A stretch of 64,000 nucleotides of DNA from Schizochytrium sp. TIO01 (lineage: Eukaryota > Sar > Bigyra > Thraustochytrida > Thraustochytriidae). Every line of letters starts with the position of its first letter. Position 1 is the stretch's first letter. The DNA lies in the NCBI GenBank assembly GCA_004764695.1, contig SMSO01000032.1:8142668-8206667 (forward strand), given 5' to 3'. This document shows positions 17,701 to 60,605 of the stretch, piece by piece. The position numbers and the translations under genes were made by a program. Below the pieces are notes generated by a model, which did no database searches, was not told the origin of the DNA, and worked only from the letters and a program-made list of their open reading frames with translations.

Positions 17701-17790
17701 GACGATCTTGTAGAGTCATTACGTCAAGGAACTTTCAAACCGTCAAGTAATTTTGAAATTGATCCCGAGCCTGTGATTCAAAGTCACTGA
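14761..17790 (+). CDS. TSNAXIP1-like coiled-coil protein (putative ciliary/flagellar protein)
   Basis: A 1009-residue protein. In order: a basic N-terminus; a helical block at about 130-180 (VDPEYALTCLEALEK..., then a block ending YSDN); a long coiled coil at about 195-400; a Ser/Arg-rich basic linker at about 415-545; a second short coil at about 555-600; and a C-terminal helical domain at about 630-925 containing LLDIVHDVWNFK, LSDAFYQILKNRYG, VVAKWAYNILYSLD and LFRLALIKEIPEGTYVDQQ. This C-terminal pattern matches my memory of TSNAXIP1 (translin-associated factor X-interacting protein 1) relatives found in ciliated organisms. The family assignment rests on motif resemblance and is moderate. 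The Ser/Arg-rich linker is probably disordered and phosphorylated. ATG at 14761 is the first in frame; the stop is TGA. It converges on the E2 gene, with 357 bp between stop codons. Confidence 0.75.
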   Translation: MKSEAKGRSFKQKNGDDDEKIVALNQKELKQLVDKVSLEIDKTREKKNTPTTKIIQPLYKSYAVAAQVSVIEAKHHAIWNEETVLRQEDLEEKITGEPPGVEYDLAGRTGASPLRRPSTLLATHESGKTRTIVDPEYALTCLEALEKMSQSDRMTPLVSDVLASACKTLRRGLYSDNLGDSFSRNFYCVETGVLQREIQALREQCMQKQAKVGSLRNEYTDLVHKFAKIEDELEVLLEDFHQIETSGEADQLNVKMTQERVDEEVRKQEQFAQTIEEQTKAVYRISQQLYEATNRRRDLRTDLRRAKRKFETFRDEMELNKGTVSREEYESILQEVSDAKDRLAVSEAAMQMRQTAYLEVVHEIQSLNEELRRERAEYAAKVEKEKEIERSLTPRPNLKEAIPMCSAIVRKPAPHRRTSSTPSMAELMQKQQASGEKEARGRSPPARRNSGGKLGKLQRSSTKASVEAEGGAFVMRGASLRKGARSKASRGSRSSTASGSNASESRSQSLSKDGKLPISRKSVGNLTVLTGNLRGRSEDRMSPTTESNIISTKEAVLEIAKEIERLGLDGPKLMRAHEELRELQVSLRDARSRLKIAESYVTLGMTMSKSKTISLAGHVTRLRRHSKSDPVDKEWFERELHFITNKRGELSVQALGRGPRIPQFLKYDGQIQIRMIPRGELLDIVHDVWNFKLVKEKSSVVMSSTVPLSDAFYQILKNRYGLQAVVAKWAYNILYSLDQLKWDPDLELFRLALIKEIPEGTYVDQQVLLTTLRSFFQRLSSLDIGGSLGEVSKNTLFASLVNLFPHKKDHFIDELEECINNEQPMPLVFIDLLLETQEDGGQLSHAESFLAVVKRQHLEETRDFYAALIEGLHIAALKYGGHLQCKLADLTQLIHKIDESIQDSQLEQLLRSAFPMRILTQEDARMARRLGKFPEQVPATPNEASNEKTMSNESVPPPSSATTDVSTLGSPTLDLEFFNVDDLVESLRQGTFKPSSNFEIDPEPVIQSH

Positions 17791-37206: not shown

Positions 37207-38899
37207 CACGTCTTGGCTTCAGGTGCTTACCAAAGCTACCTAGGCCAGACACAGACCTTCTGGCATAGGTTAAAGCGTCAACTGTACTAAGTCTCAACTC
37301 TTTGCTATCCGAGTGGCGTTATTGCAGAGATCTCTAGCCGTCTGTGTGTCTATCTCTTTGTATGTTTATATATGTGCGTGCCTGTCTTTCTATCTCTCTT
37401 TGTTTGTCTGTGTCACCTTTTGCAAGTCGTTGTCCTTTGCAAGCCCAAGTGCTTGCCTACTGGAGTTAGCAAACTAGCTGTAAGGGTACGTCAGTAGTGT
37501 AGCTAGCTAACTAAAGTAGCTAGGATTGAAGATATTCGTATTTTCAACCTAGCTTTTTATGCGCCTTATCCGATTATATGATAGTAAATTGCTCTCAACG
37601 CCCCATCTCAACTAAATTCTTAATGCTTCAACGGTCATAAATTTTCAGGGGTGTGTACCATCTAATCACTCACACGAGGTCTCGCGGGACCATGTCACAG
37701 TTTTACTTCCTTCCTTACTTTCAAATGGCCTTCCAGCTATTGGATATCTCCTAATGCTATCCCTCATGCTTTTCAACTTAGATCTTGCATTAATCGATGA
37801 AGCGCGATGCGGATCTTGGTTTGTTCTAACAGGGTATTATAATCACCGTCTCTATTAGTTCCAAGAACTGGTAAAAGGTGTCAGGAGTATGATGTATGAC
37901 AAGGAAACAAATTAAAACGTTCATTCATGGATCCTACCCCTTGCAGAGACTACAGATTCCCAGCTTCAGATTCTGAATAATGGCCCGCCTCTGTTTTCTG
38001 CATCGGCAGCAAAATCAGCAGCAGTGATGGTTTCAGATCTTACCTAGCTAGGTAGTTTAGTTATCAACGAATCTGCAGATGCTCAAACTTAATCTCGCAA
38101 TGACAATGGGTTATTTTTTAGCAACAAGTACACAATACGAAATAGTCTACTTCAAATAAAAATACTGTACAATTTACACTACGCTAACACAAACCATGAG
38201 AAAGAACGCTCACAAGAACACCCATTGTGATACTAGTACCTAGACACTAGCTAGAGTTGAGCGAAGCAGAGAACAGCACTTGGAAGTTCAAAGTTCTGTT
38301 TTGGGCATTGAGCTACACTATAGATCGAATGAATAGTCCATAGTATGGAGTTTTAATAGCCTATTTGGGAGGTACTTCGTAAGTGGGTTATACGGTAAGA
38401 GCTTTAGATGCAGCGAAAAAGAAAAAGCGGCTCGCTGGCAGCAACTTCGGTTCAATCGGTCGCTGCTCACTCGTGAACAAACTACTTTCGGCGCTACGCC
38501 TTGCGTTGGCGCGAGCTATCTGCTGGTCGGCCCTTGGGCTGGTCAGGCCTTTTTGGCTTTTGGACCTCCCTGAGAGCTGGGTGGCGGGAGCCCGTGGATA
38601 AGATCTCGACTTGTGGGCTGCAAATCACTTCATTTCATTGGGTGGCCGAGCCGAATTGGTGCCACGAAGCGAGACAAAACTGGCTGAAGGTCTGCGAATC
38701 GAATACGATACTGGAGTTCTTTGGAAACACGGGTTGTGTTTACCTCGAGGCCGAATTAAGAACAAATAATCGGGCAGGGCCGGTCCTAAAGCGGCTCGGA
38801 ACTCCTCGCAGGCGTGAGGAAGAGGACCTTTCAGGACAGATTTCTAGACTAAATAGGCAAGACGGTTGATTGTTACGTGAGGAAGTGGAATTGAGGGAA
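37207..38899. other. divergent spacer between the EF-hand/WD40 gene and the GGNBP2-like gene
   Basis: About 1.7 kb containing both promoters. A pyrimidine/TG-rich stretch lies at about 37325-37425. Several TAG-rich elements (TAGCTAGC, TAGTACCTAG at 38234-38243) occur. The last 500 bp are GC-richer and form the GGNBP2-like leader, with a frame (38501-38869) in the same phase but closed by TGA at 38867. I see no separate gene. Confidence 0.45.
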
Positions 38900-41182
38900 A
38901 TGATGCAGCAACGCGGGAAGCGAAGGACTGCCGTCTTGTGTGAAGGCGAGGTTGTGGATTTTGTACTTAACAGTAAGCAAGTGCTTGATGACCGTGAAAT
39001 TGTGCAGGGCTTGGAGCAACTGAACACAGACGGCGCAGCAAAATGCATGCAATGCAAAAAAACGTCGGTGATGAAGCTTGTAGCGAAATATAATCAGGAC
39101 ATTGGATGCTCCGGATGTGTGCGTCAGCTCAAGCAAAGGCTTGAAGGTTTCAGCTTATGTCGCGGTGGGCTAATGGGCTCTCTCTTTGAAGAGACCTCTG
39201 ATGGCATGCTAAGACTTAGACCTCAGTTTCAGCACAAAGACCATGTGGGGAAAGTTTTTTCTGCATTCAATAGCCAAGCTTACTTTAATGCGAAGAAAGG
39301 CGGGTCAAAACGGCAAAGGTGTTCGCTTCACACAGCTAGTCCACGAATGGACGAACCGTGGATTCAGGTTTGGGAGGATATGCCTACGGAGGTTCAGGAA
39401 AGAATTGCGCGGCTTGAGATTCACGAGCTTAGCAATCAGCTCACAGACCACCTAAAACAGCTCTACTTTTGTCGAGATTGTCGGGGGAATGTTCTAAAAG
39501 CTTTGGATCTCTTAGTGGGCTTTATGGATCCCTTCGAACTGGAGGACCATGATGAATATGCACCAGAGTATTACCGTCCGTTTTTATTAGGAAATGCCGG
39601 TGATACCTTTTGGAGTCTTGTAGATTGCACAACACCGAATGCACGTCGGCTCGGACATGGCGGTTCCTCTGTAGATTCTGATGGAGACGCTGATAGCACG
39701 CATAGTAAATATGACGACGACGACGAAGATGATGATCTTGGCGAACTTGATGATGTAGACTCTACAGACTTTCCTATTGATCTCGATGAATATAAAGTCA
39801 GGAGCGTGTCACCACAAGTGGAAATCACTGGTAGCGAAAAGTTGCATCCGCATGATATTCACTCCAATACCGTTGAAAGACGGAGTTCTCGTAGTTTAAA
39901 ATCTTCTCGGTCAAATCAAGGTGAAGCGGTACATCAGCCGCAGCACAAACGCAGCCTGAGTTCCAGCAGCTGTGATTGTATGGAGTGCACAGACAATGTT
40001 TCGGGAGACGACAACGATGACGATGAAGATGATGACGATGACGATGACTTTATTACTCGTCATCTAAGTGAAGATAATGACAATTTGGATGGGGGTCATG
40101 GTCACGCCCATAGTCACAACCATGCCGATCATGGGCATCAGCGTCATCACCATCATAACAATGAGCATGGCCATGGGCATCACCACACCCATAGTTTTAG
40201 TAGACGTAGTGAGGAGGAGGAAGACTACCAAGATGGGGACTCAAATTCTTATGCAATGCATGGTGCTTCACATTTGCTGATTAATCTCGACGACGTTCTA
40301 GGATTGATTCAGCGTTCTGAGGATGCTGATGCTCGGGATGAGTTGAACCGTCAAAACGGAGGGAGTAGTGATCGCCATGCTCCAACCTTAAAGGATGGAC
40401 AAATGGAGTTGCTTCATTGCATTGGCAAAGTGCTCCTTGATCGGATTCGGGATACTTGGATCGACCAGCTCATTCGTGGACGTACAGGAGAGCTTCTTGC
40501 ATGGCTGACTCTTTCGTGCATGAGGACCAACATGCAAACAGCGATTCAGAGCAAAAGCGAAGAGACTCTTTACATGTTGCTGGAGGAAGAGGAGCACCGC
40601 GAAAAGGAACGCAAGGACGGTAAGAAGAAGAAGAAGAAAAATAAGAGCAAAAAGAAAAAGAAGGGATCTTCTGGCAAATCTGCAGAAGACGGTGAGGAGG
40701 ATGAGGATGAAGATTTGCGGAAAACCTCTTTGGCGGAAGCTACGTTTCCAACTCCTGGAATCACAGATGTGGAGTCGGTCCTTTCTAATCGTCAACATGT
40801 GCCAAAAGTAGCAAAGTCCAGTGGCGCAGACATTTCTTCAGACCTTCACAGGCCTGATAATGGGCTTTCCACATCAACTGTTAAATCTCCAATGAGTGAA
40901 TGGGACCAAGCTTGTGAGGCACGTCTGCTTGCTCAATTTGGAGCAAGCGCATCAAAGTTTGATGGCGCGAATGAATATTCGCACACCTTCAGTTCCTCAT
41001 TCTGTGATCTCGTCTCTAGCTTAGAGCAGGACGATTCGGATGAAGAGGATGAAGGTTTGACTGAGGATGAAATCCGTGAAGCACAGTTGCAGCTGAAGCG
41101 AATGATGGGTACTTCCTCACGCGCTGAGCTTCGGGCTAATTTGCGTGAGCGCTTTTATAGTTTATCACAAAAATCAACTTGA
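38900..41182 (+). CDS. GGNBP2: gametogenetin-binding protein 2-like protein (GGNBP2 family)
   Basis: A 760-residue protein. Conserved family landmarks appear in the right order: a paired CxxC module (C49, C52, C70, C73); RCSLHTASPR...WIQVWEDMP; LKQLYFCRDCRGNVLKALDLLVG; after a long insertion, LLHCIGKVLLDRIRDTW; EEEHREKERK followed by a lysine-rich run near 575-590; and a C-terminal DSDEEDEGLTEDEI...RANLRERFYSL block. In animals GGNBP2 affects gametogenesis and proliferation; the molecular role is not well defined, and the Cys motifs suggest zinc binding. The insertion between conserved blocks contains acidic runs and a histidine-rich stretch at about residues 399-433 (HGHAHSHNH-like). The open frame begins at TTG 38870; ATG 38900 is the first usable start, followed at once by another ATG. 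The gene converges on the PA-domain gene, with only 229 bp between stop codons. Confidence 0.9.
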   Translation: MMQQRGKRRTAVLCEGEVVDFVLNSKQVLDDREIVQGLEQLNTDGAAKCMQCKKTSVMKLVAKYNQDIGCSGCVRQLKQRLEGFSLCRGGLMGSLFEETSDGMLRLRPQFQHKDHVGKVFSAFNSQAYFNAKKGGSKRQRCSLHTASPRMDEPWIQVWEDMPTEVQERIARLEIHELSNQLTDHLKQLYFCRDCRGNVLKALDLLVGFMDPFELEDHDEYAPEYYRPFLLGNAGDTFWSLVDCTTPNARRLGHGGSSVDSDGDADSTHSKYDDDDEDDDLGELDDVDSTDFPIDLDEYKVRSVSPQVEITGSEKLHPHDIHSNTVERRSSRSLKSSRSNQGEAVHQPQHKRSLSSSSCDCMECTDNVSGDDNDDDEDDDDDDDFITRHLSEDNDNLDGGHGHAHSHNHADHGHQRHHHHNNEHGHGHHHTHSFSRRSEEEEDYQDGDSNSYAMHGASHLLINLDDVLGLIQRSEDADARDELNRQNGGSSDRHAPTLKDGQMELLHCIGKVLLDRIRDTWIDQLIRGRTGELLAWLTLSCMRTNMQTAIQSKSEETLYMLLEEEEHREKERKDGKKKKKKNKSKKKKKGSSGKSAEDGEEDEDEDLRKTSLAEATFPTPGITDVESVLSNRQHVPKVAKSSGADISSDLHRPDNGLSTSTVKSPMSEWDQACEARLLAQFGASASKFDGANEYSHTFSSSFCDLVSSLEQDDSDEEDEGLTEDEIREAQLQLKRMMGTSSRAELRANLRERFYSLSQKST

Positions 41183-44356: not shown

Positions 44357-47300
44357 ATGAACTATAGGCAACTGAATAGCCGTGGGGCGAGCGGCTCGAG
44401 TGGATCACATGCAAATGGAAACTCTGGCAATGTCTATGGTGCAAAAGCTGCTTCGATTCTTAGCAAATTACATTCATTGGCGGCAAATCGCACCGATGGT
44501 GTTACTGAGGATGATGCTCGTAACTGTCAGGAATGCTTGGCAGGACTATGTGTTCTCGCGCGGAAACCTGCTGCAAAAGAAGTTGTTTTAAAAAGTATAT
44601 GCACATTGCTAACGAACACATTTCGAAGGTACAGAGCATATCCTTCCACATTACAATCTGCATGTGACTTGGTGTGGAGCCTTGCGTACCACGATGACGC
44701 GACGCAGGCTCTCTTTGCCGAAAGCGGTATTACAATTGCTGTCTTAGAATGCGCAGTGCACCACGAAGGCCTTGTAAGCTTGCTGAAGTCCTCATTTGGA
44801 GCCCTTTCAAGTCTATGCCGAAATCAAGCTAATCAGAACCTTGCACGTAAGCATGGTGTTGTTGATCTTGTGCTTCGGGTTTTGGACCAAAATCCAGCAG
44901 AGGATCCCATGCTTGTGCAATACACGCTCGATTGTGCTGCATCAATATGCCATGCACACAAGGATAATGGGAACTTTTTCCTTGCCTACGACGGTGCGCG
45001 CCACGTGGTTAAGGCGCTTGATAATTATATGTCGCACCAAGGTGTGGTGCGATCTGCCTGTATTGTGCTAGTCGTCTTGCGAGATCGCGCAGGAGGCCCT
45101 AAAGCCGTCGCAGGTACCGGGTGCATCCCTACCCTTGTGCGGGCAATCAAATTGCACGCATCAGTGCCAGAGCTTGAGCATATATTGTGCGCTTTACTCG
45201 GTCAGCTTATGCGCGAAGTACCCAATGTAATACCAGAAGGCCTCGAGTCAGGCGCTATAAGTGCTGTTTTGGAAGCTATGAAAGTTAATCCTGGACATTA
45301 TTTTATTGTAGAGGCCGGTTGTATGGTACTTGGAGCGTGTGGGTCTTTGATCATCAAGCGCTCAGGAAGCGACAAGAGTCGGCTTGGTCGTCGGCGGCTA
45401 CGAGCACGATTGTCAGACACAACTAATGGAGAGGATTCTGCAGCGGAAGAACTGGAGCGCGCATTAGATGGAGTAGGGTGGAGCGGTATTGCGGCTGTAC
45501 TTCAGAGTCCAGATGCCAAACCTGGGGCATATGTAAGCTGTATGCGTGTTCTTGCCCAGTTTTGCCAAATTTCAGAAGGTCGTGGTCAATCCGTTGCACG
45601 TCTTCATGATCTTTTACCTCGCGTGTTTTCTGTTTGTGGGCAATTTTCAGGAATCCATGTAGGACAGAGTTTGAGTATTCTTGAAAGTTTACTTTTGAGT
45701 TCATCTGTTGATTGCCTTGTTGCATCAGCGGTGTGCTGGACCAATAGCTTTATTGCCATTGTAGCCACCGGTGAGCGTGATGCTCGCATCGATTTAAATA
45801 CCTGCGCTGCGTTTCGGCCACACACGAAACTAGGTGGCGACACACAATCGATACTTCGATGGTATCGAAATGCTGGCTCGTTGACGGTCACAGACATGCA
45901 AAAAATCGTTCTTGGTGCTTTATCTCGGCTTAAGCACCTCGAGACAGATAGGACTCAAGGTCTTCATCAAAAGCAACAGCGGATTTTTGTTCAGGTGTAT
46001 AATATGTTTTACTTACTATCCGCATGGCTTTTAACTCGTGAGAGTAGGCAGGAGATCGTAAATCTTATTGATCGAGATGTCACTTGGAGTGAACTTCTTG
46101 GTCTTGCTCTTACATGGTTGCGGGAAGCGCGTTGCGCTAATGAGCTAAGCTGCTTTGTGAAAGTTTTAGGCGAGCCCATGCTGGACGACGCTTTGCTTGT
46201 AATTGTCTCAACCCTTCAATTTGTTGTATGTACATTGTTGAAGGAACGACAGCTTACCTTGCGTTGCATGGCTTCGAACGGTGGCGTTACACTGGTGTTA
46301 CAAATTCAGAAACTTGTCAAGGGTTTAAATCAGGTTGAACAAATTGGAGGTCATTTTGGACGTCTTCAAACTCTTGCTCTTGACACGACTGCCGTCATTC
46401 TACGCTTGATCGGTGCTGGAGCCTTACCTACAATGGACTTTTCACCATCTGAATCTGCTGTTACGAGCCTTTTATGGGATTTAAAGCTCTTGGAAGCTGC
46501 TGATGACCGCTCTTATGAGGACCATCGGGCCGCGGCATGTGGCGAAAACGTGGCCAGTGATGGTGTGGAGGCAGCCGCAGAAGAAGAGAGGCCTTCATCC
46601 GGTAGACATGACGAAGACGAAGCGTCAAGGGATGGACAAGGCCGTGCCCCAGAAGATGATTCTGATGAAACTAAAACGCATGGACGTAATGGAAAGGGCT
46701 CCAATCAAGAAGATGATGACGAAGATGGAGATGCGAATGATGATTCTGATGCTGACGATTCTGATGGGGATGATGAAGGCGTGGACGACGAGATAGTACC
46801 GCAACTCGATGGTGCTGATGACCAAGGTGCTGATGAGCTTGTGGTAAATGATGATGACGAGAAAGATCAAGAGGACACAAAGAGGCGCTCCGCAGACCGT
46901 CGTTCTTCATCACGAAAGATAGGGCATATTATTATGCCATTTGGCTCTGATCAAGATAGTGAGCGTGCTCCAGCAAAGTTTGTGGCAACGCTTCCAACTT
47001 TTATTCATGACCTCACCGATGATGATTTTGAGCCATGTATTCCAATAACACAGCGCCTGAATCCAGCAACTGCCCAGGCGCTGTCAAAGCTAGGTGAATA
47101 CCAACAACGAAGACTGGTGTATGATTGGCGCCAGTCTCTTGGAGAAGGAGAAGGTCGTGCACGATCTTCGTTACCTATGGCTGTTCCTTACTCATGTGGA
47201 ACTGAAGAATCTGTACAATTGAACGAACCTTCTATTCTCCTCGAAGGAGCCAGTTCGATACCACGCACCCCAATGGCAGGAATGCAGGATCACTATTTAC

Positions 47301-49600
47301 GCTTTGAGAGTCGTTTTGAGGGAGGTAATCTTTTGCAGGCAAGCCGAATTGGGCCACGCGAATATGATTTGGTCATTCGATCGGATCTGCACACACGTTC
47401 TCATCATCAATGGTTTTACTTTGCTGTGTCTAATACACATACCGCAGACATTACAACCAGTGTTCAATACAAGTTTAACATCGTTAATGTGACGAAACCT
47501 AGCTCAATGTTTACAGAAGGCATGCAACCTGTATTGTATTCAATGAAGGACGCTAAGGATGGAAAAGGCCAGGGATGGCGTCGTGTTGGTAAGAATATAG
47601 CTTACTTTGCTAATTCGTACGCTACGCCACCGGCATTGTCGAAGAAAAGCAATACGGCCCATTATTATACTTTGACTTTTACCATGACATTTCCAAATCC
47701 GGAGGATATCTACTTTATTGCCATGTGCTATCCCTACACATATACACAGCTTCAAGACTTTCTCGGCAATGTTTGTGAAGAGAGTGCCAAGTCTAAGAGT
47801 AATATCTGCCGCCGCAGTCTCTTGTGTAATACGCTGGGCGGTCTGCGTTGTGACGAACTAACCATTACTGATTTTTCAAGTGACCCTGGGGAAGTTGCTG
47901 CAAGACCTGCTATAGTTCTAACAGCGCGCGTTCACCCGGGTGAAGTTGTAGCAAGTCATATGATTGAAGGTACTATTCGTTTTTTGTTGGGGGATAGCGC
48001 ATTGGCCTGTACGTTGCGAAGGCTATATTACTTTAAAATTATTCCAATGCTGAATCCAGATGGAGTTTACCATGGTAATTCACGAACCTCATTATCTGGG
48101 TGCGATTTGAACCGTGCCTGGGTTGCGCCTAACCCGAATGTGTTCCCCACCATATATCATACTAAACAGATGATCCGCCGCCTCATTGCGCAGCGGAAGG
48201 TGTCTTTGTATGTTGACTTTCATGGCCATTCGCGGAAGAAAAATATTTTCTTATACGGTGTTGAGTATAAAAAGTCCGCGGCTCGTGCCAGGGACGAGGT
48301 TGTTTATGATATGTCGAATCCTGTGCGCGCATTTCCAAAGCTGATGTCAGAATCAGAGTATACCAGTGATATTTTTTCATTGTCAGATTGTTCTTATGGC
48401 GTGAGTAAGAGCCATACGCAGGCCGCACGTGTAGTTGTTGCGCGAGAGCTGGGTGTACGGGCTTCATTTACCTTGGAAGCTTCATTTTGCGGTGCTGCCC
48501 ATGGAACTTTGGACCCTCGTCTGGAGGAGCAGCATTTCAACGTGGAGCACTACCGCCGAGTGGGACTAGGGCTCTGTGACGCATTGTTGCGAATGAATCA
48601 CGCTAAGCTGTACCATGGGCTTCGTGAGCTTTGTGGAACTGCTCCAATTACTCGTACATCTGCGCCCCCGACATTACTTGAGGACCTTCTCGCACGTACA
48701 GTTGACAAGCCTCGTGTGGTGATTGCTCCAGAATTGATAAGTGCATCTGGCAACAGACCCCGTGTAGAGGTCACTTCAATCTTGCACGGTAGCAGTTCTT
48801 CTGGAGGAAGTGTAGGGCATAAACTTTCAACAACACCGTTGGCGCGAAAAGCAAACCAAGATCGGCGCTCGCCCACTCGAAAGAGCAATAATGGCTCTTC
48901 TTCTAGCTTGGGAGGAGGGTTACCCGGTAATAATATCGAGGTGGGCGACAAAACAAGCCTAGCTCCAAGTATTCCGCACTTTATGCTTGCTCGATCGAAG
49001 ACGCATACGAGACTAAAACCTGATGATGCCGGGCGCTCACCAACAATAATACCGGGCGCTCAATCTGAGACATCATCTTTTCAGTGGACAGGACCAAATG
49101 CTTTGTCGACGGAGACTAGTGATACCACGCTTGTCCGTAAATCTTCTCAAGGGCGCACGAGTAAAGGGAAAAAGAAAAAGAGCTCCTCTCATAATCAAGG
49201 TCGCATGTTGCAGAGCGTAGATGATGAGATGAGTAACAGAGGGAGCTTCACATCAGCAGGTAATAACAATCTCGGTCGACGTGCTCGCACAGCGAATGCA
49301 ACAAGTTCGCGGGCTGGCAGACGTTTAAAACAGCAGCAACAGCAGCAACAGCAACAACAGCAGCAACAGCAGCAACAGCCAAAGCTGCAATCAAAGCACC
49401 TCCGAGGCAAATCATCTGTCACGCAGAACAATGATCACCATCTTCCACAGCAGCTTCACATGCACCAAGCTACAAACCAGCCTCATCTTCTGAGCAATGC
49501 AAATAGCCAGAGATCGCTTCGTTCAACGGTACCTTCAACTGCGACCTTGGGTTTGTCTCTCTTGCCTGCTGTGCAGAATTCGCCAACTTCTCGTAATTAG
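44357..49600 (+). CDS. AGTPBP1: cytosolic carboxypeptidase, CCP1/AGTPBP1-type (tubulin deglutamylase)
   Basis: A 1747-residue M14-family zinc carboxypeptidase. CCPs remove glutamates from polyglutamylated tubulin and other proteins, affecting axonemes and motors. Residues about 20-700 are a helical ARM-like repeat region typical of CCP1. An Asp/Glu-rich disordered linker spans about 715-850. The CCP beta-sandwich domain begins near 980 (FESRFEGGNLLQASRIG...YDLVIRSD). The catalytic domain, about 1150-1420, shows zinc ligands H1193 and E1196 (HPGE) and H1289 (DFHGHS), substrate-binding N1252/R1253 (CDLNR), and general-base glutamate E1374 (TLEASF). All key residues are intact, so the enzyme should be active. 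The C-terminal 300 residues are low-complexity, rich in Ser, Arg and Gln, with a 16-residue polyglutamine run at 1659-1674. ATG at 44357 is in good context; the stop is TAG. ARM region plus M14 domain favours CCP1 over the smaller CCPs. Confidence 0.95.
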   Translation: MNYRQLNSRGASGSSGSHANGNSGNVYGAKAASILSKLHSLAANRTDGVTEDDARNCQECLAGLCVLARKPAAKEVVLKSICTLLTNTFRRYRAYPSTLQSACDLVWSLAYHDDATQALFAESGITIAVLECAVHHEGLVSLLKSSFGALSSLCRNQANQNLARKHGVVDLVLRVLDQNPAEDPMLVQYTLDCAASICHAHKDNGNFFLAYDGARHVVKALDNYMSHQGVVRSACIVLVVLRDRAGGPKAVAGTGCIPTLVRAIKLHASVPELEHILCALLGQLMREVPNVIPEGLESGAISAVLEAMKVNPGHYFIVEAGCMVLGACGSLIIKRSGSDKSRLGRRRLRARLSDTTNGEDSAAEELERALDGVGWSGIAAVLQSPDAKPGAYVSCMRVLAQFCQISEGRGQSVARLHDLLPRVFSVCGQFSGIHVGQSLSILESLLLSSSVDCLVASAVCWTNSFIAIVATGERDARIDLNTCAAFRPHTKLGGDTQSILRWYRNAGSLTVTDMQKIVLGALSRLKHLETDRTQGLHQKQQRIFVQVYNMFYLLSAWLLTRESRQEIVNLIDRDVTWSELLGLALTWLREARCANELSCFVKVLGEPMLDDALLVIVSTLQFVVCTLLKERQLTLRCMASNGGVTLVLQIQKLVKGLNQVEQIGGHFGRLQTLALDTTAVILRLIGAGALPTMDFSPSESAVTSLLWDLKLLEAADDRSYEDHRAAACGENVASDGVEAAAEEERPSSGRHDEDEASRDGQGRAPEDDSDETKTHGRNGKGSNQEDDDEDGDANDDSDADDSDGDDEGVDDEIVPQLDGADDQGADELVVNDDDEKDQEDTKRRSADRRSSSRKIGHIIMPFGSDQDSERAPAKFVATLPTFIHDLTDDDFEPCIPITQRLNPATAQALSKLGEYQQRRLVYDWRQSLGEGEGRARSSLPMAVPYSCGTEESVQLNEPSILLEGASSIPRTPMAGMQDHYLRFESRFEGGNLLQASRIGPREYDLVIRSDLHTRSHHQWFYFAVSNTHTADITTSVQYKFNIVNVTKPSSMFTEGMQPVLYSMKDAKDGKGQGWRRVGKNIAYFANSYATPPALSKKSNTAHYYTLTFTMTFPNPEDIYFIAMCYPYTYTQLQDFLGNVCEESAKSKSNICRRSLLCNTLGGLRCDELTITDFSSDPGEVAARPAIVLTARVHPGEVVASHMIEGTIRFLLGDSALACTLRRLYYFKIIPMLNPDGVYHGNSRTSLSGCDLNRAWVAPNPNVFPTIYHTKQMIRRLIAQRKVSLYVDFHGHSRKKNIFLYGVEYKKSAARARDEVVYDMSNPVRAFPKLMSESEYTSDIFSLSDCSYGVSKSHTQAARVVVARELGVRASFTLEASFCGAAHGTLDPRLEEQHFNVEHYRRVGLGLCDALLRMNHAKLYHGLRELCGTAPITRTSAPPTLLEDLLARTVDKPRVVIAPELISASGNRPRVEVTSILHGSSSSGGSVGHKLSTTPLARKANQDRRSPTRKSNNGSSSSLGGGLPGNNIEVGDKTSLAPSIPHFMLARSKTHTRLKPDDAGRSPTIIPGAQSETSSFQWTGPNALSTETSDTTLVRKSSQGRTSKGKKKKSSSHNQGRMLQSVDDEMSNRGSFTSAGNNNLGRRARTANATSSRAGRRLKQQQQQQQQQQQQQQQQPKLQSKHLRGKSSVTQNNDHHLPQQLHMHQATNQPHLLSNANSQRSLRSTVPSTATLGLSLLPAVQNSPTSRN
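49331..49378 (+). repeat. CAG/CAA polyglutamine tract inside the CCP1-type gene
   Basis: Sixteen consecutive Gln codons mixing CAG and CAA. The mixture of codons reduces slippage compared with a pure CAG run, which suggests some selection or age. It sits in the disordered C-terminal tail. Confidence 0.97.
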
Positions 49601-52704: not shown

Positions 52705-54904
52705 GTTTGCCCCCCGAATCAACTTTAATCAAAATATGATACTGCGTACCTTTTCAAGTTGATTTTTAAAATTAAAAATAATGACATAATTGAAATAATT
52801 TAAACAATTAAGGATAAGAGCATCCATTGTGGTCTCCTAACAGATGTCGGCTGAAAGAGAAACTACTAAGGTTAAAGTTAATAGGCCCCTAATTCGGGAA
52901 TGCGGTTGCACACTTTCTTCGCTTATGGGAGACGGCCGCGCGTGCGTATACTAATCGTTACCATAGCAACACACGGGTTAATAACTTAGAATTGATAATC
53001 ACCTTAATTGTATAATTTATTAAATAGTCCTGTAATGTGAGGCTGGCTTTAATTAAGGTGGTGTATGCCACGCGCAGCCAATATTCCAGGCCTCTAGAAC
53101 TTACTTATGCGCTGATAAGGAAGGTAGAGTAAGCAACTGAGTATAGACTCTATAGTAGTACTAATCAAGACATCACTATGGCCCACATAATTGAGAAAAA
53201 GAGAAGTAAGAAAATAACTTCAAGAATAACTCATAATCGTACGGTCGCTATCGAACACCTATTTAGTGCTACGCGGAGGGGTGGGCACGGCGCTTCTTTT
53301 AATTTATGTATATATACATATATAGACTTAAAGATGAATAATCAATTAATCACAAAGAATAGTGTCATATCCTCTAAATGGAGGTGCTATTGGTAAGAGT
53401 CTAATAAGACTATAAGTTGATCATTCAGAGTGTACCACTACTACTATGTATTCTATAGATTACCTATCTGTCTGTTTATTTCTTTCTTTGTTTCTTTAAT
53501 TAGAATTCGTTTTTTAAGTATATTGTCAATTATTTTATGTCAATTAAAAAAAGAGAAAAAGTGAGTCGATGTGTATGGTATATATAGTTGATTGATTGAT
53601 TCTCCTTCTGCAGTTCTTGGTTCATAATGTTTGAGTCCAGTTCTCTCAGGAGTCCGAGGGACCTGAGGCCGCCGAGACAAGGTTGGGGGCCTGTGCCAGG
53701 ACTCTTCAGAGCCTCCTCTGGCCATAGCAAGAGGGCAGAGCAGAGCCAAGTCGGCCGGATTCCCGTTATTCACTCTGGTTTGGTTTTTAGTTTATTAATT
53801 TATATTGATTTATTTCTAAGTTTTCAATCAGCTAAAAGAAAAGGAAAACGAAAACGAAACGAAAGAAAAGAAAGTTGTTATTTGGTTATCTAATCTAAGG
53901 CAGAGGGAGACAAGTACAGACAGAAAGAAAAGGGCCTTCGTGGAAAGCAAAGAACAAACACGGCTAATGGCTCTGCGTTTCTGAAATGAAAGGCTGCGCT
54001 TCTTGGTATATGTCTCTATCTCTGATCATAGTTGTTTAGTTGAAACAATGAGACATAACTTTGTAGATATCTATGCGAATCAGGGAAATATCAGATGACA
54101 AACTGCTCCTAAGAAGAAGAAAGAAAGAGTCAAAGGGTAGAGTAAAGAATAGCAATGGGGCTATTAGGTTTTCCCCGAGCTACTGGTACTGGATATCTAT
54201 GATAAATAGTAAAACACATTTTAGGCCTTTTCAGATAAAGGAAGGCTTTAAAAGAGGCCCAAAGGAAAGAGAAAGAGATGAGATGAAGAAGAAAGGGTAG
54301 TACCAACTAGTAGTACTTACTATCGCTTAATACGTAGGTAGGCACGACGAACTCTTTGTGGTGTTTAGATGGGTCTAGATGGGTCTAAATTCGCATGCGC
54401 TTTTATGGATTGGCATTCGATTGAATACACTTACTTGAACACAATTGAGCACAATACGACACAATACAATGCAGTTCGAGTTAATTCAATTAGCTCGACG
54501 CAACTCGATAGCATAGAATTAGGCCCTGCGTGGGTATATTTGGACGTTTGTGGAGTCTGGGGCCGTGTAAAAAGGGAGGCTTACGAGCAGGTTTGAGGGT
54601 GATTGCGCTGTCTATAAGTTAGACTTATAGGCCTCTTTTAATCCTAATACTCACTGGAAGAATAGAATACTTTTGTTCTTTTTCTTTTTGAAATAAAAAC
54701 CAATCAAAGACTACCTTCCTACTGACACTTCTGTAGTGCATTTCAAATAGGATGTAAGTAAGTAGAAAATAGAAAAAATAGGTGAATAAGAATATGACAG
54801 TATATGGTGAATATTATACAACATACAAATATGAAAATAAGGAATAAAGCACAGAATCATAAGACACATCGATAAACACACCCAAAAAATTGAATGAAAG
54901 AAGA

Positions 54905-55043
54905 ATAAATTACAGAAGTTAAAGAGAAATAAATTACAGAAGTTAAAGGGAAATAAAGAAGTTAAAGAGAAATAAATTACAGAAGTTAAAGGGAAATAAA
55001 TTACAGAAGTTAAAGAGAAATAAATTACAGAAGCTAAAGAGAA
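54905..55043. repeat. 24-bp minisatellite, six units
   Basis: Units of ATAAATTACAGAAGTTAAAG plus four bases (AGAA or GGAA), starting at 54905, 54929, 54953, 54972, 54996 and 55020. The third unit is 5 bp shorter. Substitutions alternate between AGAG and AGGG in successive units, hinting at higher-order duplication. The period is a multiple of three, so a minus-strand frame stays open. Confidence 0.93.
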
Positions 55044-55309
55044 AGAAAGTAGAAATAGACTCGCAGCTCCTTGCCAGGCGGCGCGGCGGGAGCGCTGGAA
55101 ACGCAGCACTGGTCCAAGGTCGCCGGAAAACGCCAAGGCCAGAGAGGTAGCTGGCTAAACGAGGAGCTCTCCACCCAGTGGGTGTTTTACTCTCAAGCGG
55201 TGGCGCTTGCGAAGAAGCGGATTTCAAATTCATTGGTCATTTTATTCGTTCATCCTTTTGGTGATCCACCCACCCTGCAACTCATCCATCAGCTACGTTG
55301 GCCAGAAGC

Positions 55310-55480: not shown

Positions 55481-55970
55481 GTAAGTAAAACTCTAAGAAG
55501 GGAGTGCGTGCTCTCTTTGACGGATCGATTGATCAATTGTTATTATTGGTATTGTTGAGCTGGTGTTGAACGTCAATAATTGGGTACCTTTGAAGTATTC
55601 GTGGCGAACAAGTGCAGAGGGTTCTACGTTGTTTGCAAACGGTTAAGACTGTATAAGGTTGTACTTTGACAGACGCTAGTCAAACATTTCTTGAAGGAGC
55701 TTGGTGACTTAGGAACAGTCCTTGGAAAAATTAACTACTGGATCACTTGAAGCGCTCACGGGGTGCGCAAAAGCTATCTGTTTGTCTGTCAAATTCCTTG
55801 GTATTGTTGGTGAGGTTTGTGTGTAAGCCAATCTGTCCACGGGAGGAAGGAGATAGATTTATTTCTCTGTAATCCCTTCGGTTGAGTCAAGTTCCTAGAT
55901 CGTGGCAAAACTCAACCAAGGTCTCCGACCCCTGGAAAGGGGTGCGGAGGGCCACTATAAAAAGGGCCCA

Positions 55971-58900
55971 ATGCAGGACGGAGGAATGGGTCAATATGAA
56001 AAGCCAAATCACACTGATAAAGGCCCAAAACAGAATGATGATGCCGACAATGACCTTGCAAATATTGATTATGATGTTGAGTTAGGTGACGTAGATTACG
56101 ACGAGGATGCCATGTCACGCTCTTCGTCAGTTGTGTCAACAACCAGCTCAGCTCGCCGAAGACGCAGAAGCAGCAGTGGGAGCAGTATGCACAGCGTTGT
56201 TGAGGTGCCAATAGTTGATGAACTTTTTGAGAGCACAACTGTACTTCGGGAAAATGCTCGCCTTGCAGAAATCACTCGTGCTCAATCAGGAGGTTTTGTA
56301 GGTGCCAATGGGTTTTCAGATTCACAGCCTTTGGCAAACGACAAACAATTACAAGGTCTCGCACCACAGGGTGGAGATCATGAGGCCTTGACAAAAGTTG
56401 GGCATTCTATTGCAGAACATGACGGTAACGGTGATATAGGTGGCGATGCACAAGAGGGAGAAGTAGCTAGCGAGTCCACCGGGAATGACTCGCGACGGGG
56501 TGGTTTTTTTATGCTGCAATCTCGCCTCGCAGCTCTCTTTGTAAATCCTTATGTAGAAATGACAATGGCGGTAACGAGTCTCATGTACATGTGTTTGGTC
56601 TATGTCCAGGTTTCTCTAGCACTTCCTGGTGCCATAGATGATCTCAATATCTGGCGTGGATTTTCACTTGCAAGTATTGTTCTTCTTTGTGTATTCTCAA
56701 CCGATGTAATTTTGCGCATGTTTGTGTTTGGCCGTTCGTACTGGGCTACTCTTGCAAATTGCATCGAGTTCGCCATTGTTATGGCTGCTCTCGCACTCGA
56801 AGCCGTTGTGTATGTGCGTATCTCTAGGGCAACGGAATCTGACCGTCCTGGCGTTAATGCAGTGACTATCATCAATAGTCTTCTGAAGCTCCTTTTATTT
56901 TTGTTCCGATACCGTCGCTTTGAATACGTATTCTCCTTCAAGTATATTCAAGAGCAAGCTCGCCTATCCAGTGCCCATGATGGACTTACGGCCTCGGATC
57001 GTTTGTTAGACCTTCTCCGAAGTTTTCGTCATAAATATCCTTTGACTACCCGCGAGGCACAAGAGATTACTTGGGTGAGTTTCTTAATTGCTTCGAGAAG
57101 ACTGTACAGCAGCGCAGCTGTACCCTCAACAGAAGATCACCAAACCGAAAAGCTCTTCGAAGGTCTTGATGAAGATACCACAAATTGGTTATTAGCAACT
57201 TATTCTCGTGTACAATTACAACAAGATGATAATCGTGCAGCCCTGGGCTCACCAGAGCTCACACCCTCTGGTTCCTCAAGGCTTAGTGATCTTGGTGAGA
57301 GTGAAAGTGAATTAATGCCAACGTTTTCCCTGAATGATGGTGGAGAGCATGGAGATGATCCTGAGTATATGACATCTCTTCCCAGAGACGAACCAGACTC
57401 AGAAAGGGAAGCCCATTTGCACCAAGACTCGCTTGATGCGGCGCCGGCCCTTAGTTCTGCTCATACAGCTATCCCTCCTAGTTCACCACGGGGACCATCT
57501 GCAGTGTTGAAAGATAATAGCAGCCATGCTGGAAATCTCAACAGGGCAAGTCATACAGACACTGAGCTGGTCCTTCCTGTGTTGCCTACTGTAGACTCCG
57601 CAAAGAGTGTTTTGGGTGCTGCATCGACACGGACAGAAGGTAGCTCCGAGCATCCGGAGGAGATGAAGTCACCATTACTACTTCCAAGTGAGGCTGGAAA
57701 GAATCATTACCCACCTGCATCTGATCTTGGTCGGCATATTTCTGGTGGCTCTGTTGGTGTTCAAGCTCGCGATTTGTCACAATTTATTGAGGCTTTACAT
57801 CGGGAAACATACTCACCAGCGGGTACCCAGACACGAGTTCTTGGCGCATCTACAGCTCCAATGCGTGTGCAAGATCTGGTAGGCCGCAAGTTCCCACCAG
57901 CGAAAAGCTATACTGATCTTCGAGAGATCGGCTCGGATATGGACCCCAATGTGCCTTTGTCTCCAGTTCAATCCCGGACTATGGCAATTAATAGTAGACG
58001 GGTTGTCGCAGGGGATACTGAGGAGCTTTCAACTTTTCATGATCGACAAGTGAGTGGCGAGATGAGTGACTCTGTGACATCAAGATCAGCAAATATTGCT
58101 ACCCAGAGACCCGAAGCGAAATCATTCGAAGACGACGAAGGTTTATCACCAACTACACCTCGGAAGCGGTCTCAATTAAATGTATGCACTACCATGTCCA
58201 AGTTTGAAGAATGTGATGAGGATGACGATCATAACTCACGGGTCAATGACCATGGTGAAGGCCAAGAACGGCCGATAGAAACTCTTACTTCGCGTGGGGC
58301 ACAACGTTTGGATGAAATCAGTCCTCATGAACATGGGGTTGTTCAGGTGGACCAGGCTGACGATGATGACGATAATGATTCTGTAATCAGTACACATGAG
58401 AATATAGTTGAGAGTACTGATCGAGCCGGTGTTGCTAGCCATGCTAGAAATTCTAATGATATTGGAGAAGATGATCTTCCTTCCCCACCTGCACCACCCT
58501 TGGTGTTATCAGATCATGCAAGGGATGCGGATGATATCACAGGAGGTGGAGATGAAGACGAATGTGCCAGGGGCTTGGCCGAAAGTGACTTCACTGATGA
58601 ACTTATGCCTCATCAAATAGAATCCCCTGGATTAAGGGCAATGCCTCCAGTTCTGCAAACTCTCACTGCTCATAGTCGCAGCTCAAGCACAAGCGTTCCA
58701 GGCCAGCGGCGTTATTCGCAACGAAAACACTTTACTGATGCAGTGCATAGTAGTCGCGCAGCAGCGAACGTGACGTGGTTTGATACCCCTAATGGAACAG
58801 GAGTACACCATCAGCGTACATACACGACTGGAGATGGGCCCAATAATATTGCGCAGAACAGCTTTATGGAAAACCCTCATCGTGACACTCCTGCTCACCA

Positions 58901-60605
58901 AATGGAGCTAGTAGATGCTGACGGAGTGGATAGGCTCAAACTTCTGGCAGGAGAGCTGAACAAATTGAAGGCTCTTCGTTGGACACAGAGTGGGATTGAT
59001 CATATCAATGATACTATGGATGAATGGGACTTTGATGTCTTTGAAGCTGATGCCTTCTCAGCAGGCCGACCTCTTTCTTTGGTGTTTTTAGGAGCACTTC
59101 GCAAGAACCGCATCTTTGAGCAATTTCGTGGTTTGCGGTACAGCACAATTGTTTCAATGATCAGCCATGTAGAAAATGGCTACCGGGTGACAAACTCTTA
59201 TCATAACAGGATCCATGCCGCAGATGTTGTACAAACAACCCACTACTTTATGACCCACACACTTTTGCGAAACGCAATCACGACACAGGACATTTTTTGT
59301 GCTCTTGTTGCATCAGCAATTCATGATTTTCAACATCCAGGCATGAATAATGCATTCTTAATTGCTACTGGTGATAAATTGGCCTTGCGTTATAATGATC
59401 GAGCTGTACTCGAACACATGCATGTCGCTGCTGCCTTCGAGATGATGCGGACTAAACGATGTGATGTCTTGAAGGCAGTTGGCTCAACTGATCGTTATTT
59501 GGAAGCTCGAGAGACAGTTATCCAAATGGTTCTAGCAACTGATATGAGCCACCATTTCGACGGACTGGAACAGTTCAAAACGGAGGTGGTAGGTTACTTT
59601 GACCGACTTCGCCAGAAGCGGCGCAAGGGCCATAATAACACTGTTACTGGCTCGAGTCTAGACTCCATGCTCTCTGGGGATGCAAACATGGACTCTGAAA
59701 TTGGAACGGGGATAACCTCGCCAGATACTAATGGCGGAGGCGATGACAATGCTAGTCACTCTGGAGATGTCACAGACCATGTCGCCCCAATCGAGGTACG
59801 CCGTACATTGCTGAAAACAACTCTCCATTGTGCAGATGTATCAAACCCTGCCAAAAACCCACGCCTTTGCCAACGCTGGGCAATGCTTGTTCAAGAAGAG
59901 TTTTTCCGCCAAGGTGATCGGGAGCGCGATGCGGGACTCAAGATCAGTACATTCATGGACCGTCGTAAGCCTGCATTTCCAAAATCTCAGATCGGCTTCA
60001 TTACCATTATTGTTCGTCCCCTGTTCAATTCGTACTGTCAATTTCTTTCGACTTTAAAGCCCCAGGTGGATTGGTGTCTGTCTGCAAATCTGTCACATTG
60101 GGAGCAACGCCAAGCTGACGAAGAGCAAGGCTTGGTGGGGCCTGGTCTTGGAGGCTACGCGCATCATGGAATGATTTCGACTACAACATCACCAGGTCTA
60201 GGTCCAATTTCTCCCTCCTTTGGCCCTCTTAATAGTAGTAGTAGTATTACTGGAGGTCAGCATAGTGGTACCATACATGGAAGTTCAGGCATGCAGCAAC
60301 GTCGCAAGTCTTTTCGTTACGTTTCAAGTCGCATTAAATCTTCTCTCACACGATCGCAGAGCAGTGCAGTAAGTGGGGATGTTTTGCAGAAACAACAGCG
60401 TCGACTTGGGAAAAATGGCTTAAAGCTTGACCTCGACATGCTTGTTTCTCCCACCTCACCAGATACCCAGCACCCATCAACCGCATCAACGTTTTCTCCA
60501 ACAACACCAAACGCTCGTCCAGTGAGCTCTCCAGCTCACGCCGCCTTGAAACGTGCAGCAACCGATGCGGCACTTAACGTAGGCAATCCTCGATTTCTGT
60601 CATAA
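55971..60605 (+). CDS. class I 3',5'-cyclic-nucleotide phosphodiesterase with N-terminal S1-S4-like membrane domain
   Basis: A 1544-residue membrane enzyme hydrolysing cAMP and/or cGMP. A polar N-terminus (1-190) precedes about four hydrophobic helices at 196-322. The second and third read like ion-channel S2-S3 (STDVILRMFVFGRSYW, then NCIEFAIVM). The fourth, near 295-320, has a lysine and an RYRR cluster but not a regular S4 series. A conserved-looking helical region follows to about 430, then roughly 600 residues of acidic, Ser-rich disordered linker. The catalytic HD domain, about 1010-1380, has YHNRIHAADV (proton-donor H1078), HDFQHPG (H1118, D1119, H1122), HCADVSNP (D1289) and the invariant Q1340. 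An insertion of about 55 residues (after QKRRKGHNN) precedes the HCAD motif. The tail is Ser/Pro-rich. The frame extends to GTG 55902; ATG 55971 is the first ATG, but an upstream exon is possible. AATAAA at 60656 follows the TAA stop. Confidence 0.93.
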   Translation: MQDGGMGQYEKPNHTDKGPKQNDDADNDLANIDYDVELGDVDYDEDAMSRSSSVVSTTSSARRRRRSSSGSSMHSVVEVPIVDELFESTTVLRENARLAEITRAQSGGFVGANGFSDSQPLANDKQLQGLAPQGGDHEALTKVGHSIAEHDGNGDIGGDAQEGEVASESTGNDSRRGGFFMLQSRLAALFVNPYVEMTMAVTSLMYMCLVYVQVSLALPGAIDDLNIWRGFSLASIVLLCVFSTDVILRMFVFGRSYWATLANCIEFAIVMAALALEAVVYVRISRATESDRPGVNAVTIINSLLKLLLFLFRYRRFEYVFSFKYIQEQARLSSAHDGLTASDRLLDLLRSFRHKYPLTTREAQEITWVSFLIASRRLYSSAAVPSTEDHQTEKLFEGLDEDTTNWLLATYSRVQLQQDDNRAALGSPELTPSGSSRLSDLGESESELMPTFSLNDGGEHGDDPEYMTSLPRDEPDSEREAHLHQDSLDAAPALSSAHTAIPPSSPRGPSAVLKDNSSHAGNLNRASHTDTELVLPVLPTVDSAKSVLGAASTRTEGSSEHPEEMKSPLLLPSEAGKNHYPPASDLGRHISGGSVGVQARDLSQFIEALHRETYSPAGTQTRVLGASTAPMRVQDLVGRKFPPAKSYTDLREIGSDMDPNVPLSPVQSRTMAINSRRVVAGDTEELSTFHDRQVSGEMSDSVTSRSANIATQRPEAKSFEDDEGLSPTTPRKRSQLNVCTTMSKFEECDEDDDHNSRVNDHGEGQERPIETLTSRGAQRLDEISPHEHGVVQVDQADDDDDNDSVISTHENIVESTDRAGVASHARNSNDIGEDDLPSPPAPPLVLSDHARDADDITGGGDEDECARGLAESDFTDELMPHQIESPGLRAMPPVLQTLTAHSRSSSTSVPGQRRYSQRKHFTDAVHSSRAAANVTWFDTPNGTGVHHQRTYTTGDGPNNIAQNSFMENPHRDTPAHQMELVDADGVDRLKLLAGELNKLKALRWTQSGIDHINDTMDEWDFDVFEADAFSAGRPLSLVFLGALRKNRIFEQFRGLRYSTIVSMISHVENGYRVTNSYHNRIHAADVVQTTHYFMTHTLLRNAITTQDIFCALVASAIHDFQHPGMNNAFLIATGDKLALRYNDRAVLEHMHVAAAFEMMRTKRCDVLKAVGSTDRYLEARETVIQMVLATDMSHHFDGLEQFKTEVVGYFDRLRQKRRKGHNNTVTGSSLDSMLSGDANMDSEIGTGITSPDTNGGGDDNASHSGDVTDHVAPIEVRRTLLKTTLHCADVSNPAKNPRLCQRWAMLVQEEFFRQGDRERDAGLKISTFMDRRKPAFPKSQIGFITIIVRPLFNSYCQFLSTLKPQVDWCLSANLSHWEQRQADEEQGLVGPGLGGYAHHGMISTTTSPGLGPISPSFGPLNSSSSITGGQHSGTIHGSSGMQQRRKSFRYVSSRIKSSLTRSQSSAVSGDVLQKQQRRLGKNGLKLDLDMLVSPTSPDTQHPSTASTFSPTTPNARPVSSPAHAALKRAATDAALNVGNPRFLS

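Follow-up and report, generated by a model that had tools for sequence, protein, structure and literature searches.

Evidence for a fusion of a voltage-sensor-derived domain with a class I cyclic-nucleotide phosphodiesterase in Schizochytrium sp. TIO01

We analyzed a 64,000-nucleotide stretch of the genome of the thraustochytrid Schizochytrium sp. TIO01 (contig SMSO01000032.1, positions 8,142,668 to 8,206,667; here called the window) and found a gene that almost certainly fuses a voltage-sensor-derived domain (here VSD, for voltage-sensor domain) to a class I cyclic-nucleotide phosphodiesterase (PDE). We postulate, with modest confidence, that its product is a membrane-tethered PDE for which the VSD serves as a regulatory input, with a voltage dependence that is weak or none. 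The fusion is shared with six other proteins, among which the charge of the S4 helix is graded.

The phosphodiesterase and its S1-S4 module

The gene lies in a plus-strand frame at 55902 to 60605 of the window, with 1567 open codons from a GTG start. Residues are numbered here from the GTG at 55902; the first ATG, at 55971, is the start used in an initial annotation of this DNA and yields a protein of 1544 residues (numbering from the ATG is lower by 23). A database protein of 1544 residues, P0002, is 100% identical to the window protein across the module and the PDE region. The PDE domain, called complete in the initial annotation, was recovered by Pfam as PDEase_I with an E value of 2.8e-75 over profile positions 1 to 236 of 238. 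It is the sole Pfam domain above cut-off in the window protein, in which neither a phosphatase nor a Guanylate_cyc domain was found. A poorly conserved insert near residues 1236 to 1295 splits the domain, and the alignment to PDE4D falls in two blocks around it.

Four PDE motifs are intact and align to PDE4D: YHNRIHAADV (residue 1100), AIHDFQHPG (1139), LHCADVSNP (1308), and KSQIGF (1361). We take these to supply the metal ligands (HD) and the purine-binding Gln, and the SNP of the third motif is presumably a pointer to a preference for cyclic AMP (cAMP). The best Protein Data Bank (PDB) relatives of the catalytic region are PDE4, followed by PDE8, PDE1, PDE7, and PDE3. Ranking nearest the cAMP-specific PDE4 and PDE8, the window protein is probably a cAMP-preferring class I PDE.

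The predicted structure places the four hydrophobic helices that had been noted ahead of the PDE (Table 1) in a VSD-like four-helix bundle rather than in unrelated helices. S4 was modeled as one helix from residue 320 to 357, with low confidence past about residue 340 (predicted local distance difference test [pLDDT] values of 62 and 51 by block). For the linker that follows, model confidence was low to middling, and the fold matches bear little on it.

The voltage-sensing phosphatase Ci-VSP is the top PDB match of the module by sequence (phmmer) and also the closest VSD by fold among the Foldseek and VIA matches listed, which upholds the parallel to voltage-sensing phosphatases drawn in the initial annotation. 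All 39 profile matches of the module are VSD proteins, Hv1 among them. The proposed kinship with Ion_trans and VSD families was thus borne out by the VSD profile and not by Pfam, where Ion_trans (PF00520) had no match in the window protein and the gene was not one of the 86 matches listed genome-wide. When the module was run by itself, Pfam gave nothing useful, and a tblastn search of the module against phages gave no match. P0030, one of the six relatives, passes Ion_trans with 45.0 bits against a cut-off of 25. The module scored 26.6 bits against P0030 by phmmer, and the best of 2000 locally shuffled copies scored 11.5; for S1-S4 alone, the corresponding values were 19.2 bits and 11.8. Because shuffled copies score far lower, the likeness of the module to P0030 is more than chance. 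By sequence, profile, and predicted fold, S1-S4 is homologous to VSDs, a genuine VSD-derived domain, as the initial annotation had suggested in calling it VSD-like.

S4 charge across the VSD-PDE family

At E <= 1e-10, a search with the PDE region gave 638 matches (120 listed), and a profile of the module was scored on 122 proteins (P0001 to P0122) with a cut-off of E <= 1e-3. Full matches were the window protein (with its copy P0002), P0003, P0004, P0007, P0008, P0010, and P0030; apart from P0002, all had served to build the profile. Six proteins other than the window protein therefore carry the VSD-PDE fusion, which the initial annotation had proposed seeking in related protists; one of them, P0030, has a full S4 ladder together with the same linker and PDE as the window protein. 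P0006, whose sequence starts without a Met inside the module, matched through the linker alone, and the channel-like P0122 gave scattered matches; the other proteins of the set had no match at this cut-off. Fungal PDEs of the chytrid type showed weak linker-only matches, from E 0.0015. As a protein query, the module of the window protein returned only that protein, and the module of P0030 returned only P0030 and P0122. The exact-word limit of the first of these searches missed P0003 and P0004, which were found via the PDE region, so absence from its results says nothing on rarity.

Across the seven sequences the module has 13 invariant columns, 8 of which belong to the post-S4 linker. In this comparison the linker is conserved and travels together with the VSD and PDE. 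Between the window protein and P0004, identity is 51% in S1-S4 and 51% in the linker, but only 28% where the variable stretch that precedes the PDE can be aligned (196 of 559 residues); for P0003 the identity in that stretch is 25% (227 of 559 residues aligned). Judged on the sequences at hand, the module is under constraint.

The S4 register was taken from the phmmer alignment to Ci-VSP, whose S4 residue numbers we take to be R217 to R232, and a 19-residue S4 segment was compared across the seven VSD-PDEs. The window protein pairs A320 with R217, S326 with R223, K329 with R226, L332 with R229, and F335 with R232, which leaves K329 as the only cation in the field between the R217- and R232-equivalent positions. 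A basic RYRR cluster (R336, R338, R339) stands at the inner end of S4, after these positions. The initial annotation was correct in describing S4 as poor in Arg. Cations at every third position were not found in the window protein, and with one Lys in the 19-residue segment it can be called VSD-derived, its voltage sensor role being only putative.

The S4 segment of P0030 holds five Lys or Arg residues, with Arg at the R217, R223, and R226 positions and two more. There are two each in P0007, P0008, and P0010, which carry Arg opposite R223 and R226, and in P0003, whose segment also has two acids and bears one of its cations at the outer end; P0004 and the window protein have one each. S4 charge is therefore graded within the family (5, 2, and 1 cations). 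The S1 acid varies as well, being Gln wherever the R223 cation is missing (the window protein, P0003, and P0004) and Glu in the other four. These three proteins form one clade in the PDE tree, which makes the joint loss of the R223 cation and the S1 acid one evolutionary event.

The gating-charge transfer center, an aromatic residue and an acid in S2 with an acid in S3, is represented in the window protein by F265, D268, and E289, F265 sitting three residues before D268. The Asp in S2, Glu in S3, and FGRSYW loop singled out in the initial annotation are thus all present. All seven VSD-PDEs retain the acids of S2 and S3; six have Phe as the S2 aromatic residue, and P0030 has Met in its place. 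Every member of the subclade of three retains the S2 Phe and acid, the S3 Glu, and a cation at the R226 position.

PDE trees took in 26 of the 122 proteins and frames from 8 of the ten other PDE loci of the genome. A clade of eight members (P0001, P0003 to P0008, and P0010) had support of 100/100, and of 100/99 after removal of three long rows (P0009 and the L011 and L014 frames); within it, P0005 has a gene model without a VSD. The trees gave P0030 no supported position, and a tree constrained to group nine rows (the seven VSD-PDEs with P0005 and P0006) was not rejected by the approximately unbiased test (p-AU 0.52). The VSD label required one change on the full tree, with 19 ungrouped rows uncounted, and three changes on the tree without the long rows, where all rows were counted and P0005 and the cut-short P0006 were scored as without VSD; 0% of the bootstrap trees for this second tree had a single change. 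A full-length model of P0030 was confident in the VSD and PDE blocks only (mean pLDDT 56.6).

Sensor, anchor, or pore

We propose that S4 would run on into the cytoplasm and that the linker would relay where S4 stands, or how it tilts, to the PDE, making the catalytic site more or less accessible or active. K329 is perhaps paired with D268 of S2 or E289 of S3. With one Lys left in the field, a weak voltage response at most would be expected in this species, and the module may respond instead to lipid, a partner, or dimer state, perhaps as its main input. The effect would be local cAMP breakdown at the membrane, opposing the VSD-bearing membrane cyclases of the same genome. Voltage control of the enzyme, raised in the initial annotation, was not supported, given one S4 cation in the field and no Ion_trans match; judged on S4, such control is probably weak. 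Strong voltage sensing is unlikely in the window protein because one S4 cation is left in the field, and we would be surprised by a substantial voltage dependence. For a relative of the P0030 type, we put voltage dependence at even chances.

The main rival hypothesis is that the VSD-derived bundle is inert and does no more than keep the PDE at the membrane, perhaps as a dimer, its sensor role having been lost in this lineage. The single field cation and the long, variable stretch from linker to PDE fit such an anchor, as do the plain transmembrane helices described for most apicomplexan PDEs and PDE3 in the available part of PMC10865986. A mere anchor need not retain the S2 Phe and acid, the S3 Glu, and the R226-position cation throughout the subclade, or a linker about as conserved as S1-S4, and we consider this hypothesis possible but doubtful. 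At the other extreme, membrane potential would move S4 and strongly gate cAMP breakdown, as in voltage-sensing phosphatases. Ci-VSP as the nearest VSD by sequence and fold, and P0030 with its five Lys or Arg residues on the same linker and PDE, speak for a fully working voltage-sensing PDE. The S4 counts of the other members, with one cation in the window protein and P0004 and two in P0003 (one at the outer end), P0007, P0008, and P0010, would make for a small gating charge, and a fully working sensor is improbable in the window protein.

A VSD short of S4 cations could also leak, passing protons or cations as a gating-pore or Hv1-like current that regulates the PDE. Gating-pore currents are discussed for VSDs missing at least one S4 cation in the available text of PMC10651576, and Hv1 is among the profile matches; there is no direct evidence for such a flux, and the bulky hydrophobic residues L332 and F335 at the R229 and R232 positions would be expected to plug the path, which leaves leakage very unlikely. 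That the helices are not a VSD at all, and that chance hydrophobic helices or another membrane family precede the PDE, could be argued from the lack of Ion_trans in the window protein and from a weak match to PIG-F. PIG-F was the only non-channel membrane family to appear; its E values of 0.19 to 0.51 are below the Pfam cut-off, and its identity with the module is contradicted by the profile and fold results. The 39 VSD proteins among 39 profile matches speak strongly against this idea, as do the fold, the homology to a protein that passes Ion_trans, and the shuffle control, and we hold it to be extremely improbable. The tethered PDE with a VSD as regulatory input remains the reading we favor.

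Genomic context, known systems, and significance

The features of the gene are collected in Table 1.

Table 1. Parts of the VSD-PDE gene in the window
Feature	Residues	Window positions	Strand	Remarks and basis
Coding sequence from first ATG		55971..60605	+	1544 residues, single open frame; frame and P0002
S1 helix	216-240	56547..56621	+	Q236, Glu in four relatives; model, alignment
S2 helix	248-276	56643..56729	+	F265 and D268 align to Phe and acid pair of Ci-VSP S2
S3 helix	284-309	56751..56828	+	N286 and E289; model, alignment
S4 helix and modeled cytoplasmic extension	320-357	56859..56972	+	Model, alignment
Post-S4 linker, conserved	360-446	56979..57239	+	Motifs KYPLT, FLIASRRLYSS, FEGLDEDTTNWLLATYS
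Variable stretch between linker and PDE	447-1005	57240..58916	+	Long, acidic, Ser-rich
Class I PDE catalytic region	1015-1400	58944..60101	+	Pfam stretch, residues 1100-1390 = 59199-60071

In the genome (64 Mb, 37 contigs), the 13 PDEase_I matches listed represent 11 loci including the window gene. The module as genome query matched its own place only, giving no second VSD-PDE. Among open reading frames of at least 60 residues at the ten other PDE loci, there was no VSD-profile match (best E 0.077), and introns could conceal one; two of these loci (L010 and L013) had PDEase_I only by Pfam. The profile also missed the VSD of a VSD-cyclase in L026, so it would overlook other VSD types.

Two VSD-cyclases were found at L036 and L026 (contigs C33 and C34). 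The first (L036:3205-5973, minus strand) has Ion_trans (1.4e-7) and Guanylate_cyc (1.2e-9) above cut-off; in the second (L026:3667-8133, minus strand), Guanylate_cyc (8e-7) is above cut-off and Ion_trans (5.5e-4) below. The VSD of L026 had no PDB match by phmmer at E <= 0.01. A further locus, L037 (2771-5047, minus strand; C24:393500-402500), has a VSD fused to RGS, with Ion_trans (4.3e-6) and RGS (4.3e-11) both above cut-off; we found no paper on such a fusion in the open-access literature searched. The S4 helices of all three loci are Arg-rich by eye. The cyclase search listed 20 matches at about 15 loci, ten of which were taken for a VSD check by hydropathy and family profile. L036 and L037 were absent from that list and found only via the L026 module, so more VSD fusions may exist.

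In the N-terminal ~500 residues of the L026 frame, residues 389 to 467 resemble the closing portion of a PDE domain (blastp match with the L016 frame, E 1.3e-4); Pfam found no PDEase_I there, and the region is perhaps a decayed PDE on the VSD-cyclase. At L009 (C30:3208000-3217900, minus strand), a 2647-residue frame holds Guanylate_cyc (C30:3217201-3217656) and the best PDEase_I match of the genome (C30:3210229-3210924), an apparent cyclase-PDE fusion. The genome also matches a PfaA-type polyunsaturated fatty acid synthase (1157 bits over adjoining stretches of one 2172-residue frame; cut-off 1010), a match above cut-off in none of 14 control genomes, which suggests a thraustochytrid-like stramenopile of the labyrinthulomycetes. 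The host presumably has a flagellated zoospore stage.

Elsewhere in the window, a 1747-residue frame at 44357 to 49600 (plus strand) carries Peptidase_M14 and a cytosolic carboxypeptidase N-terminal domain, and we take its product to be a candidate tubulin deglutamylase. Frames of 1009 residues (14761 to 17790) and 770 residues (38870 to 41182), both on the plus strand, had no Pfam match at E <= 0.001. Upstream of the VSD-PDE gene, at 54711 to 55136, a short A/T-rich unit appears by eye to be repeated, with SVIYFSLT stretches in a minus-strand frame.

VSD control of an enzyme is well established for voltage-sensing phosphatases (Ci-VSP, TPTE2), which share with the window protein a pore-less S1-S4 VSD, a linker, and a cytosolic enzyme that cleaves phosphoesters. 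Theirs is a PTEN-type lipid phosphatase, whereas the window protein has a class I cyclic-nucleotide PDE and an S4 ladder reduced to one Lys in the field. Rhodopsin phosphodiesterases, by contrast, presumably sense light through a rhodopsin and have no VSD; they resemble the window protein in joining a membrane sensor domain to a PDE in protists, according to the available part of PMC8774190. VSD-cyclases of Paramecium, Tetrahymena, Plasmodium, and Phytophthora (PPTG_13136, PPTG_13761) likewise set an Ion_trans-type module on a cyclic-nucleotide enzyme in protists (available text of PMC12223298 and PMC10651576), but they make cyclic nucleotide, which the window protein should destroy. The two VSD-cyclases of the TIO01 genome, with their Arg-rich S4 helices, are of the same kind as the published Phytophthora ones. 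A protozoan channel-cyclase responds to hyperpolarization, the recombinant protein being described as not yet definitely characterized (PMC10651576 and PMC12414865, available parts).

Apicomplexan PDEs and PDE3 also place a class I PDE after N-terminal transmembrane helices; these number six, as in most clade A apicomplexan PDEs, and the regulatory domains are called undefined in the available part of PMC10865986, a paper from which the word "voltage" is absent. VSD proteins reported up to 2023 comprise channels, sNHE, a protozoan adenylyl cyclase, Ci-VSP, and Hv1 (PMC10651576, available part). The sperm sodium/proton exchanger SLC9C1 differs from the window protein in being a transporter rather than an enzyme, with its VSD after the exchanger domain (same source). 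The word "phosphodiesterase" is absent from PMC10651576 and from the review PMC13095418. PDEase_I and Ion_trans are described as invariable neighbors in the syntenic regions of four Euplotes subgroups (PMC8670190, available part), a possible hint that the genes are linked or fused in ciliates. No VSD-PDE is named in the open-access literature searched (mainly titles and abstract openings, with subscription journals mostly outside and preprints outside). VSD-cyclases are already published; the VSD-PDE fusion is apparently new as far as this literature shows.

A VSD on a PDE would add a degradative arm to the VSD-bearing cyclic-nucleotide enzymes. Since the family offers a natural S4 charge series of 5, 2, and 1 on the same linker and enzyme, voltage coupling is testable with intact natural proteins, and a VSD-PDE, if voltage-dependent, would be a tool with which a shift in membrane potential could lower cAMP. 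As one relative has retained all of the sensing charges, cAMP breakdown may once have been under the control of cell voltage, or may still be so weakly. We tentatively entertain a protist family of voltage-sensing PDEs in which P0030 is fully charged and the window protein is tuned down yet voltage-biased; if such a family exists, as a counterpart to the VSD-cyclases, membrane potential would govern both the making and the breakdown of a cyclic nucleotide within one cell.
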